A DNA stretch of 64,000 nucleotides from an uncultured Poribacteria bacterium. Its GTDB lineage: Bacteria; Poribacteria; WGA-4E; WGA-3G. Shown piece by piece: positions 925 through 53,233 of the stretch (the stretch's first letter is position 1; each line of letters opens with the position of its first letter). The translations under genes and the position numbers were made by a program. The notes under the pieces are model-generated. The model ran no database searches. It worked only from the letters and a program-made list of their open reading frames with translations, and had not been told where the DNA came from. The DNA is taken from contig OX638316.1 of NCBI GenBank assembly GCA_951812525.1, positions 4,968,608 to 5,032,607 on the forward strand, in the 5' to 3' direction.

Positions 925-1091
925 GCTATTAGAGATTTCAGGTTCTATAGACATATCACTCCTATGGAACTTAGGAATGATGATTGTAAGGTAACTTTTT
1001 TCAAAAAGATTGCCTTGGATTTAAGACGGATAGGATTAGAATTCGCGTCTATCTTGGTTGGGAAAAAATAAGTTTAGGGGAATGGAAGGAT

Positions 1092-1226
1092 AAAAAAGGA
1101 GCCGGAAACCATATTCCTAATAGATTCCAAAAGGTTCAGGGTCCTAACCTAACTCACGCGTGCAACAGAGGCATGCAAACTACACCTTTTAGGAATATGG
1201 TTCCGACTTACCCAAGGAGGCTTACA
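1092..1226 (-). ncRNA. Candidate sigma-54-driven structured RNA
   Basis: No convincing ORF exists here. A consensus sigma-54 promoter at 1237-1254 would start a minus-strand transcript near 1226. The transcript would contain two complementary arms: the 5' arm is encoded at 1189-1204 and the 3' arm at 1104-1120 (GGAACCATATTCCTAA against its complement, one bulged base). A second nested pairing is AAGGT/ACCTT. The long stem is followed by a run of six T at 1097-1092, so the RNA could end there at about 135 nt. Sigma-54-driven small RNAs are known elsewhere (Vibrio Qrr), but no relationship is claimed. It could instead be a long leader of the ECF gene, or a miniature inverted-repeat element. Confidence 0.4.
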
Positions 1227-1236
1227 GAAATATAAA

Positions 1237-1254
1237 AGCAATTTCCGTGCCAAT
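1237..1254 (-). promoter_or_regulatory. Sigma-54-type promoter (minus strand)
   Basis: The minus strand reads TTGGCACGGAAATTGCT, a full match to TGGCAC-N5-TTGC with GG (1251-1250) and GC (1239-1238) ten bases apart. It sits between rtcB and the ECF sigma gene and points left. A palindrome with arms GCAATTT/AAATTGC lies just upstream at 1273-1294 and could be an activator site. Confidence 0.6.
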
Positions 1255-36127: not shown

Positions 36128-36781
36128 TTAAATGTTACCCAGACCTACTTGTGCAGTACTTGGACTGGTGTCGTCCTCTGTAAGATCTGATATTAGCCGC
36201 ATCGCCTCATTATAGTCGGCAAGTGCGGACTCATATCGCCTAGAAGCCGACGCCACATCCCCTTTAGTAATTTCATACTTGCTAAGATTCCGCTTTGTCT
36301 TGCCACGGTTGTAGTAGGCTGCGACATAATCCGTATTCAGATGGATCGCTTTATCGTAAGCTGAAAGTGCCTCTTCTCCTCGACCTTGCTCGTTATGGAG
36401 ATACCCAATGGAGAACCATGCCCTAGCAGCAAGATCGTTGTCATGTCCTTCCGCATGATTAGCGATGTCGCGCCATTTTTGAAGGGCATCATCAATTCTC
36501 TCATCGTTCTGGAACCTATAAGCATTTGCCAGAGCCTTATCGTAAAAAGATGCCTTAGAATTCCGCTCAACACGCCGTACGACTTTTTCAACCAATGCGT
36601 ATTCCTCAGATTTCTTATCTTCAAGTAAAAAGGTGATGTCTTCGCTGGTTCCCAAGACTTCTTGAATTGATGGTAGATTACGGCGACGTATTAAGGCAAT
36701 AACTGCAGCAATACCACCTACAAACACGCCAATACTACCCATGGCAGCAATTATGTAGAAAATAATCTCTTTGGAGTCCAT
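36128..36781 (-). CDS. Membrane-anchored TPR protein under sigma-54-type control
   Basis: From the ATG at 36781 the product has 217 residues. One transmembrane helix (EIIFYIIAAMGSIGVFVGGI) comes first, then a cytoplasmic linker (RRRNLPSIQEVLGTSEDITF) and TPR units such as ARAWFSIGYLHNEQGRGEEA and AYYNRGKTKRNLSKYE. The frame is open to 36946, but its first codons lie within the sigma-54 promoter (36930-36947), so that start cannot be used from this promoter. An ATG at 36898 is possible. TPR arrays bind protein partners, and the partner is unknown. It has the same promoter architecture as the ECF sigma gene and the Clp-type gene. Confidence 0.7.
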   Translation of the reverse strand: MDSKEIIFYIIAAMGSIGVFVGGIAAVIALIRRRNLPSIQEVLGTSEDITFLLEDKKSEEYALVEKVVRRVERNSKASFYDKALANAYRFQNDERIDDALQKWRDIANHAEGHDNDLAARAWFSIGYLHNEQGRGEEALSAYDKAIHLNTDYVAAYYNRGKTKRNLSKYEITKGDVASASRRYESALADYNEAMRLISDLTEDDTSPSTAQVGLGNI

Positions 36782-36929
36782 CCCATTTCTTACCAATCCA
36801 CCGTGTTTATCGTACCACTTAGCAACCTTATGAAGAGTATTCAACACAGTGTTATGTAAATCAAACCGAATCAGGTCAGGGTTATACAGCAGGCACATTG
36901 CAATTATTGTGCCGATTTTCACAAAAAAT

Positions 36930-36947
36930 TGCAATACCTGTGCCAAA
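36930..36947 (-). promoter_or_regulatory. Consensus sigma-54 promoter of the TPR gene
   Basis: The minus strand reads TTTGGCACAGGTATTGCA, matching TGGCAC-N5-TTGCA fully, with GG (36944-36943) and GC (36932-36931) ten bases apart. Confidence 0.72.
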
Positions 36948-37101
36948 CTGTTGAAAGTTCAGGAACATCTTGCCCGATCATCCACCTATAACACAGATGG
37001 CCACTAAGTTTATCAAAAAATGCGAAGTGCTAACATTTTTCCAAAGAAACTGTTTCGCTAAAGCATGGAAAGCAGTTTGTAATTTTCCGCACTACTAACA
37101 C

Positions 37102-37154
37102 GCATAAATTGCAGACACAATTCGCATAAATTGTATATCAAATACAAAAATTGC
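37102..37154 (-). promoter_or_regulatory. Three tandem upstream activator sites
   Basis: GCATAAATTGC (37102-37112), GCATAAATTGT (37124-37134) and ACAAAAATTGC (37144-37154) are spaced 22 and 20 bases apart, all in one orientation. In the transcription direction they read RCAATTTWTGY. They lie 158-210 bases upstream of the -24 element of the TPR gene and match the arrays at 893-924 and 51043-51095. Confidence 0.6.
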
Positions 37155-51042: not shown

Positions 51043-51095
51043 ACAATTTTTGCATAATACCCCACAATTTTTGCATAATGTGCTGCCATATTTGC
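51043..51095 (+). promoter_or_regulatory. Three tandem upstream activator sites
   Basis: ACAATTTTTGC at 51043 and 51064, and a weaker GCCATATTTGC at 51085, are exactly 21 bases apart. They lie about 190-245 bases upstream of the sigma-54 promoter at 51285 and match, in the same orientation relative to transcription, the arrays before the ECF sigma and TPR genes. Confidence 0.6.
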
Positions 51096-51284
51096 GTCCT
51101 GTATAGCAAAACAGAAGGAATACAAACAGATCTCATCCGTTCAGAGCGGTAGTTTCTCAGAGAACAGCGAATAGCCCACCTATTTGACAAATCCAGTGTA
51201 AGTCAGTGCTATAGACGCCTTACGGTGAAAAATATGCGTGGATTCCAGCGGTTTTTTCACAAACATTGCGTTTCCTTGAGGATC

Positions 51285-51301
51285 TTGGCACAAAACTTGC
51301 T
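51285..51301 (+). promoter_or_regulatory. Consensus sigma-54 promoter of the Clp-type gene
   Basis: TTGGCACAAAACTTGCT: GG (51287-51288) and GC (51299-51300) are ten bases apart. The expected start near 51312 leaves a leader of about 60 bases. Confidence 0.75.
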
Positions 51302-51373: not shown

Positions 51374-53233
51374 ATGGACTATATGAACGCTTATTACTAT
51401 GCTGATCTCACCCTGAGAATCATTCACTCTGCATGGAATTTCGCAGACCGTAGGGGAGATGAAGTACTGCCTAGAGACTTAATAAGAGCACTCAACAAAC
51501 ACACTGAGGGCGAAGGATTAAACAAATTTGGTAGAGATTTAACCCAAGAAATAAGAAATGACAAACAAAGAACAATAAATAAAATAATTGACCCGGTTGT
51601 TGGCAGAGATGATGAGATTGAGCAGCTCATCGAAATTCTATGTTGTCGTCGAAAGAATAATCCTGTGCTCTTAGGAGAAGCAGGTGTTGGTAAGACAGCA
51701 ATTGTAGAAGGATTGGCACAGCGAATCGTTGATAAAGAGGTGCCACAGAACCTTACAGAAAAGAGGCTCATCGCCCTCAATTTGTCTGATGTCGTCGCCG
51801 GAACCGAATACCGCGGTCAATTTGAAGAACGGATTAAAACGATTCTAACCGACATTGAAAAGAAAAAACGAAAAATCATTCTCTTTATTGACGAACTTCA
51901 TACCATAGTTGGGGCAGGTTCAGCAATCGGTACACTTGATGCTGCTAACATGCTAAAACCTGCGTTAGCAAGAGGTGATTTGCGATGTATCGGTGCGACG
52001 ACATTCTATGAATATCGCAAATATATTGAAAAGGACGCTGCTTTAGAACGCCGATTTCAACCTCTTCAAGTGGATCCGCCATCTGTTGAAGATACCATTA
52101 ATATGTTGCACAAGTTAAAGGTCCACTACGAAAACTATCATAAGGTTCAGATTCAGAACAATGCCATTAATGCTGCAGCGGAACTATCAGATCGGTATAT
52201 CTCTGGCCGCTTTCTGCCAGATAAAGCAATTGAATTGATTGATCGAGCATCAGCTCGGGTAGGGATAAAAACCGACAATAAATCGCATAAACCCCCTAAG
52301 GTGAAAGCCGAGGATATCGCTAAAATTGTGGAGAAAATTACAAAAATCCGGGTTAGTCGGCTTATGGAAAGCGAAAAACAGAAATTGCTAAAGATGGAAA
52401 CGCGGTTGCGCGAAGAGGTTATTGGGCAGGATGAGGCAGTGGCTGCTATTTCCAATGCCATTCGACGAGCCCATGCTGGACTCCGAGACCCGAACCGTCC
52501 GATTGGTTCATTTCTCTTCATAGGACCTACTGGTGTTGGGAAAACACACCTCGCGAAGAAACTCGCCGAATTTCTATTTGATGATGTCAACGCCATGATT
52601 CGCCTTGATATGAGCGAATACGGAGAGAAATATACTGTCTCCCGATTAATTGGTGCGCCGCCAGGATACATCGGCTACGACGAAGCTGGACAACTGACAG
52701 AGGCTGTCAGACGGCACCCTTATTGTGTTATTCTGCTTGACGAGGCTGATAAAGCAGACCCCAGCGTGCGCAATGTTTTACTCCAAATGCTTGACGACGG
52801 AAGAATGACAGACGGACAGGGGCGAACGGTTGATTTCAAGAACACTGTTGTCATCATGACTGCCAATAGTATAGGAGCGGGTTTCCCACCAGAATTCCTG
52901 AATCGCATTGACAGCCAGATTATCTTCAAACAACTTGGCAATGAAGAATCGAAACAAATCATCGCGCTGGAGATAAAGCAGTTGAATTCCCGTTTTGAGA
53001 AGAAGAAAATGCAATTCACAGTATCCGAACAGGCGAAAGAGGAATTAGTGAAAGTTGGGTTTGATAAGAACGAAGGAGCGCGGCATCTTCGGCGAACGCT
53101 TGAAAACTGTATTCTTGACAGAGTGGCAACTCAGATATTAGATGGCACATTTAAAGAAGGTGATACTATTCAAGCTGAGTTTACAGATGGTGCATTTGTT
53201 TTTAAAAATGGAGAGCCATCTGATGCAAAGTAG
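51374..53233 (+). CDS. Compact Clp-family AAA+ protein (ClpA/ClpC/ClpB-like)
   Basis: A 619-residue two-ATPase Hsp100 protein. NBD1 has Walker A GEAGVGKT (101-108) and Walker B LFIDELH (170-176). NBD2 has Walker A GPTGVGKT (384-391), Walker B ILLDEAD (453-459) and the pore loop GYIGYDEAG. The N-terminus (about 60 residues) is only half of a Clp_N repeat (LTLRIIHSAWNFADRRGDE). No coiled middle domain interrupts NBD1. Between TANSIGA and PPEFLNRID (497-511) almost nothing is left of the segment that carries the ClpP-binding loop in ClpA/ClpC. It may therefore work without ClpP, as an unfoldase or remodelling factor. It stands alone under a sigma-54 promoter. Confidence 0.9.
   Translation: MDYMNAYYYADLTLRIIHSAWNFADRRGDEVLPRDLIRALNKHTEGEGLNKFGRDLTQEIRNDKQRTINKIIDPVVGRDDEIEQLIEILCCRRKNNPVLLGEAGVGKTAIVEGLAQRIVDKEVPQNLTEKRLIALNLSDVVAGTEYRGQFEERIKTILTDIEKKKRKIILFIDELHTIVGAGSAIGTLDAANMLKPALARGDLRCIGATTFYEYRKYIEKDAALERRFQPLQVDPPSVEDTINMLHKLKVHYENYHKVQIQNNAINAAAELSDRYISGRFLPDKAIELIDRASARVGIKTDNKSHKPPKVKAEDIAKIVEKITKIRVSRLMESEKQKLLKMETRLREEVIGQDEAVAAISNAIRRAHAGLRDPNRPIGSFLFIGPTGVGKTHLAKKLAEFLFDDVNAMIRLDMSEYGEKYTVSRLIGAPPGYIGYDEAGQLTEAVRRHPYCVILLDEADKADPSVRNVLLQMLDDGRMTDGQGRTVDFKNTVVIMTANSIGAGFPPEFLNRIDSQIIFKQLGNEESKQIIALEIKQLNSRFEKKKMQFTVSEQAKEELVKVGFDKNEGARHLRRTLENCILDRVATQILDGTFKEGDTIQAEFTDGAFVFKNGEPSDAK

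Follow-up and report, generated by a model that had tools for sequence, protein, structure and literature searches.

A sigma-54 regulon of one Candidatus Poribacteria genus, probably driven by a PspF-like activator at helically phased upstream sites

In the 5.06-Mb genome of a Ca. Poribacteria bacterium, a member of a sponge-associated candidate phylum, no fewer than 15 genes, dispersed over the chromosome, are preceded by the same four-part sigma-54 switch, and the gene of a putative activator is among them. The parts follow one order: two or three copies of an upstream activator sequence (UAS), spaced 21 bp apart and usually lying 170-245 bp upstream of the -24 box; a 33-bp middle element; a weaker ATTTCAGCGG element at about -45; and the promoter, TTGGCAYRAAAYTTGCT. 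Fifteen promoters carry three to four of these elements in fixed order, and each of them, together with one variant, stands before a gene on the same strand, as expected if the promoters serve the coding strand. A preliminary description had called the regulon small, a word that does not suit this number. We hold, with good confidence, that these promoters form a sigma-54 (RpoN) regulon of a single Candidatus Poribacteria genus, driven by a PspF-like activator at the phased UAS.

We propose that a receiver-less activator, made up of an AAA+ domain and, at its C terminus, a putative DNA-binding region of helices, binds the two or three same-orientation GCAATTTTTGC sites 21 bp apart. From the UAS it would loop to the RNA polymerase-sigma-54 complex at TTGGCAYRAAAYTTGCT and hydrolyse ATP to open the promoter. 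The AAACCCAG-N7-CTGTGTTT element, which lies on the same helical face as the UAS, would be used by a second factor or in a second binding mode, and the activator would stimulate its own gene through the same architecture. A complete, testable cis-regulatory code and its probable activator can thus be read from the DNA of an uncultured candidate phylum.

Promoter architecture in the window and across the genome

In the window (the whole 64-kb stretch of DNA that was analysed), three loci had been described with sigma-54-type promoters, two of them exact, each downstream of copies of RCAATTTWTGC. The promoters are present, two matching the consensus at 11/11 positions and the third at 9/11; every motif copy lies where it had been located, and all six exact copies in the window belong to the described pairs. 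Pfam searches bore out the targets named at the three loci, an ECF sigma factor, a membrane TPR protein and a compact Clp ATPase. One part had been overlooked, a middle element at all three loci; at locus C, moreover, the third UAS is degenerate.

Locus A is read on the minus strand. Its two UAS copies (both GCAATTTTTGC) occupy 914-924, starting at -210 from the first G of the -24 box, and 893-903, 21 bp downstream and starting at -189. The middle element (TTTCATAAACCCAGTGTGTGCCTGTGTTTTAGG, 783-815) is the window's best match to a matrix trained without locus A. A copy of the weaker element (ATTTCGGCGG, 748-757) follows, then the promoter (TTGGCATGAAATTTGCG, 697-718), whose core at 699-716 is the 9/11 match. 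The target is the gene of a 210-aa ECF sigma factor (1-529, Pfam Sigma70_r2 and r4_2), which runs past the window's left edge. Locus C lies on the plus strand, with two UAS copies (both ACAATTTTTGC) at 51043-51053 and 51064-51074 and the degenerate third (GCCATATTTGC, 51085-51095) in the 21-bp register. Behind them come the middle element (TTTGACAAATCCAGTGTAAGTCAGTGCTATAGA, 51183-51215), a copy of the weaker element at about -45 (ATTCCAGCGG, 51242-51251) and an 11/11 promoter (TTGGCACAAAACTTGCT, 51284-51301), which precedes a compact ClpA/B-type double AAA+ ATPase of 619 aa (51374-53233; Pfam AAA_2, AAA_lid_9 and ClpB_D2-small).

At locus B, on the minus strand, three UAS copies (GCAATTTTTGT, 37144-37154; ACAATTTATGC, 37124-37134; GCAATTTATGC, 37102-37112) and a middle element (TTTGATAAACTTAGTGGCCATCTGTGTTATAGG, 36985-37017) are followed by two sigma-54-like sites 31 bp apart. 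The upstream site, at 36930-36947, had been taken as the promoter; it matches the consensus at 11/11 positions as described, but the working promoter is probably the site 31 bp downstream, at 36899-36916 (CGGCACAATAATTGCA). We prefer the downstream site because it restores the modal spacing, with UAS at -240/-220/-198 and the middle element at -104, and because in the orthologous promoter of a related genome (L125, G014) GG and GC are both intact only at its counterpart. The 11/11 site falls outside the modal spacing and is not conserved in that ortholog. The start that the ORF caller assigned to the TPR gene (TTG, 36946) overlaps the promoter; the likely start is the ATG at 36781, which gives a membrane TPR protein (Pfam TPR) at 36128-36781. 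Across 51 promoters, a degenerate sigma-54-like site is weakly enriched 30-31 bp upstream of the promoter (z 2.9), three helical turns away and complete only at locus B, so the upstream site at this locus may be an exaggerated form of something general.

Elsewhere in the window, a perfect sigma-54 consensus (ATTGGCACGGAAATTGCTT, 1236-1254, minus strand) lies just downstream of rtcB (1350-2966) and is followed by a long inverted repeat (1020-1226, minus strand). The pair possibly specifies a small RNA transcribed from a sigma-54 promoter, reminiscent of the RNA-repair operons found in other bacteria; the repeat has no match in Rfam, and its fold is not clearly better than those of shuffled sequences (z -1.1).

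Taken singly and with one mismatch allowed, the UAS motif is not enriched in the window (11 copies against 7.3 expected), so the evidence must come from arrangement. The signal is the clustering, orientation and phasing of the motif copies. The genome holds five pairs of CAATTTWTGC with a spacing of 20-21 bp, versus zero for a reversed control pattern, and each of the five has a same-strand sigma-54 promoter 190-225 bp downstream. The composite of a UAS, 150-210 bp and GGC-N7-TTG returned 20 rows (about 16 loci) from the whole genome, against one for a reversed-pattern control; with the UAS reverse-complemented, the same search gave no match in the genome. These counts answer the refuting condition set in the preliminary description, namely motif pairs being no more frequent near sigma-54 promoters than elsewhere. 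We set aside two of the composite matches as chance, one that reads like coding sequence (L010) and one that runs into an HU gene (L014), both without a middle element. Neighbouring UAS sites are exactly 21 bp apart in 36 of 54 cases, and over 53 promoters the UAS are phased to the promoter at 10.5 bp (p 5e-5). The promoter consensus TTGGCAYRAAAYTTGCT, drawn from 51 non-redundant promoters, is close to TGGCACG-N4-TTGC and of the GG-N10-GC type; its invariant GGCAY and TTG were imposed by the search pattern, the other positions being free. The genome has one rpoN (Sigma54_DBD, E 2e-58), and the architecture is conserved in more than 20 genomes. Together with linkage to the gene of an enhancer-binding protein, described below, this recurrence, orientation specificity, phasing and genus-wide conservation uphold the original proposal of a sigma-54 regulon with activator sites phased at 21 bp.

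A PspF-like candidate for the activator

The genome encodes about 13 enhancer-binding proteins, NtrC-type ones included. The candidate that we favor is P0001, the 367-aa product of L050 (G000:C1:695520-696620). Its AAA+ domain begins at residue 12, matches PF00158 (Sigma54_activat, E 2e-62) and contains the Walker A sequence GETGVGKE. With no receiver or N-terminal regulatory domain, P0001 falls in the PspF-like class. Loop 1 reads GAFTSA in nearly all family members, one residue off GAFTGA. A Pfam search recognised no HTH in P0001, and HTH_8 appeared only in the paralogue L047, below the cut-off. The AlphaFold model of P0001 is poor (mean pLDDT 50), with three C-terminal helices at pLDDT 70-79.

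The L050 gene carries a UAS pair, a middle element and a sigma-54 promoter about 57 bp before its start codon. Eight further Ca. Poribacteria loci have the full architecture before an activator gene, with UAS at about -227/-206, the middle element at -107 and the promoter 50-67 bp before the match start. Because the activator gene has this full architecture, it is probably subject to positive autoregulation, often in tandem with a paralogue. This genome holds three near-full paralogues of L050 and a truncated one, and tandem pairs (L050-L049 and their equivalents in other genomes), 250-450 bp apart, are frequent.

The preliminary description had suggested that co-occurrence would identify the activator, and the PspF-like family does track the motif across the genus. 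It is found in 24 of 36 genus members versus 0 of 24 other genomes, a range that matches the motif's; both appear to be confined to one genus, with three motif matches falling outside it. The median number of motif promoters per genome is 4 with the activator family versus 1 without it (p 0.0015). Linkage is close as well: in 13 of 22 genomes, versus 0.045 expected, no more than 250 bp separate a P0001-type gene from a strict motif promoter, which is the activator's own in eight of these (G004, G010, G014, G015, G016, G021, G027 and G032) and a divergent neighbour in five (G008, G011, G023, G026 and G033). A few genomes (G002 and G034) have motif matches and no close P0001-type gene; G002 has an L047-type paralogue. 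Two variant promoters, L031 (G000:C1:3254091-3254318) and L133 (G033:C90), have UAS copies about 16 bp apart and no middle element, and at both an L047-type activator is encoded close by, divergently. In G001 and G011, the L047-type genes share a contig with a motif match, at 0.3-1.4 kb.

The regulon could also be real and its GCAATTTTTGC sites be read by another enhancer-binding protein, for instance an NtrC-type response regulator, with the P0001 family as a target in a cascade. The number of enhancer-binding proteins in the genome, some of them NtrC-type, would allow this, as would the slight degeneracy of L050's own UAS copies in this genome. However, such a cascade does not readily account for the co-distribution of the activator family with genus and motif, for a linkage within 250 bp that includes divergent neighbours that are not targets, or for the independent linkage of L047-type genes to the 16-bp variant sites in this genome and in G033, with further cases in G001 and G011. 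We regard it as unlikely, and P0001, or one or more of its paralogues, as the likely activator of the regulon.

The middle element and other readings of the switch

The middle element, TTTGATAAACCCAGTG-N5-CCTGTGTTTTAG, has a palindromic core. Its start lies about 104 bp before the -24 box and about 97 bp beyond the last UAS; the full 33 bp, TTTGATAAACCCAGTGTATACCTGTGTTTTAGG, contain the 23-bp dyad AAACCCAG-N7-CTGTGTTT. In 45 of 53 promoters its score exceeds the 99th percentile of shuffled sequences. A whole-genome search with three mismatches found it five times, each time at a regulon promoter, and a matrix trained only on other loci ranked the three window copies as the top three matches in 64 kb. 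Its distances from the UAS (66, 76, 86-87, 94-98, 106-107 and 118 bp) fall on one helical face, with a Rayleigh p of 7e-5 in this genome alone and of 5e-12 when relatives, which are not all independent, are added. To our knowledge, sigma-54 promoters do not ordinarily include a regulon-wide middle element held in phase with the enhancer.

The element is unlikely to be a sigma-70 promoter (TTGATA-N17-TGTTTT), since some of its best-conserved bases lie between the boxes. Compared by eye in a few copies with the IHF consensus WATCAANNNNTTR, it shows a TATCAA core on the opposite strand and no TTR. As a candidate reader of the element we sought a conserved regulator gene adjoining the activator, and there was none at 15 loci. 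Tentatively, we raise the possibility of an obligate two-factor enhancer, in which the UAS-bound receiver-less activator is phased with a second, dedicated factor at the middle element that supplies a signal the activator cannot sense, possibly with hetero-hexamers of the tandem paralogues. If true, an uncultured phylum would gate sigma-54 activation in a new way. In any case, the middle element offers a concrete handle on the control of activators that have no sensor domain.

Being longer and more specific than the UAS, and restricted to regulon promoters, the middle element might instead be the activator's main site, leaving the CAATTTTTGC repeats to an auxiliary architectural protein. This assignment seems improbable to us, for enhancer sites typically come as two or three copies, in phase and upstream, and the variant promoters beside L047-type activators retain the UAS and lack the middle element. 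Because these L047-adjacent variants have the UAS alone, they link the CAATTTTTGC sites to the activator clade and separate them from the middle element. We keep the UAS as the putative activator sites.

One could suspect the promoters of having been copied from a dispersed repeat or mobile cassette, and not independently maintained, given the recurrence of one element order at many loci, several matches in G002 that share downstream sequence and a tandem triplicate in G028. This explanation is largely refuted. In the genome under study, the spacers between motifs are near-unrelated, with only 4 of 105 promoter pairs sharing an 11-mer, so the promoters are not recent copies, and order and phasing look maintained by selection. 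Moreover, indels between the elements come in helical-turn steps, the downstream genes differ, and between orthologous promoters the motifs persist but the spacers do not. Chance occurrence of short AT-rich motifs near promoter-like sites, in line with the lack of enrichment of the single motif, is refuted: the controls run on the whole genome gave 1 and 0 rows where the true pattern gave 20, the leave-out matrix puts exactly the three window loci first, and conservation extends over more than 20 genomes. As a separate observation, contigs C262, C268, C272, C402 and C509 of G002 carry repeated CAATTTTTGCTCGATA units with shared downstream sequence and have the look of a dispersed cassette.

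Related systems and targets

Among the closest known systems is the PspF regulon, the sigma-54 system of phage shock and membrane stress: its enhancer-binding protein, too, is receiver-less, similar in size and built of an AAA+ domain and a C-terminal DNA-binding region, the latter putative here, and its targets are membrane-associated, represented here by a YqiJ/flotillin operon. Here, however, targets are many and scattered, a dedicated middle element is added, the loop reads GAFTSA and the activator gene is itself a target. The UAS sequence is also unlike the known PspF sites. In Pseudomonas syringae, HrpR and HrpS form a paired, co-dependent hetero-hexamer that controls the ECF sigma factor gene hrpL (PMC4145663). 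Here the arrangement of genes, with tandem activator paralogues, and an ECF sigma factor target recall that system, whereas the type III secretion context is missing, direct targets number about 15 and the tandem genes lie 250-450 bp apart.

Two or three helically phased upstream sites that would activate sigma-54 promoters at a distance are shared with NtrC/NifA-type enhancers. The site itself is GCAA-N3-TTGC-like and fixed in orientation, unlike TGCACC-N5-GGTGCA and unlike TGT-N10-ACA, a site class described for many enhancer-binding proteins of Clostridiales (PMC6615313). IHF-assisted sigma-54 promoters likewise have a conserved site between enhancer and promoter; here that site is a UAS-phased element with a 23-bp dyad, an opposite-strand TATCAA core and, in the copies read by eye, no TTR at the IHF distance. 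The reconstructed sigma-54 regulons of Desulfovibrio (PMC4641369) and Clostridiales (PMC6615313) rest on the same reasoning from -24/-12 promoters, UAS and enhancer-binding-protein linkage; the present case differs in its phylum, its receiver-less paralogue family and its regulon-wide second operator. We found no description of this regulon in the full-text literature on Poribacteria with sigma-54 or sigma-factor regulators, subscription journals and preprints lying outside the scope of that search.

Beyond the three window loci, the promoters precede genes for a YqiJ-like protein followed by flotillin (L026), a secreted LRR/dockerin-like protein (L027), a long secreted protein (L028), an HMA domain protein (L029), two LRR proteins (L030 and L033), a 181-aa protein of no named kind (L032), a LamG protein (L034), a STAS protein (L035), an unnamed protein followed by an AAA ATPase (L036), a coiled-coil membrane protein followed by one with TPR-like repeats (L037) and the activator itself (L050). 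These descriptions follow Pfam where it matched and otherwise a reading of the sequence. Homologous targets stand behind the same architecture in relatives: the activator, STAS, L027-, L028- and L032-like proteins, the TPR protein (in G014, L125) and the ECF sigma factor (in G016 and G032). With an ECF sigma factor, a Clp ATPase, the flotillin/YqiJ operon, a STAS protein and secreted proteins among the targets, the earlier suggestion of a stress regulon is plausible. More broadly, the targets suggest that the regulon may serve envelope and protein homeostasis, which would agree with a published account of sigma-54 as a regulator of the bacterial exterior (PMC3162934).

Two side observations concern targets in relatives. 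The regulon-target ECF sigma factor of L129 (G016:C21) and L150 (G032:C35) is fused, in one reading frame of about 956 aa, with a long C-terminal portion whose repeats resemble a beta-propeller. Genes for patatin-like phospholipases, recognised by a DGGGIRG motif and not by family search, stand behind regulon-type promoters at L130 (G016) and L133 (G033).
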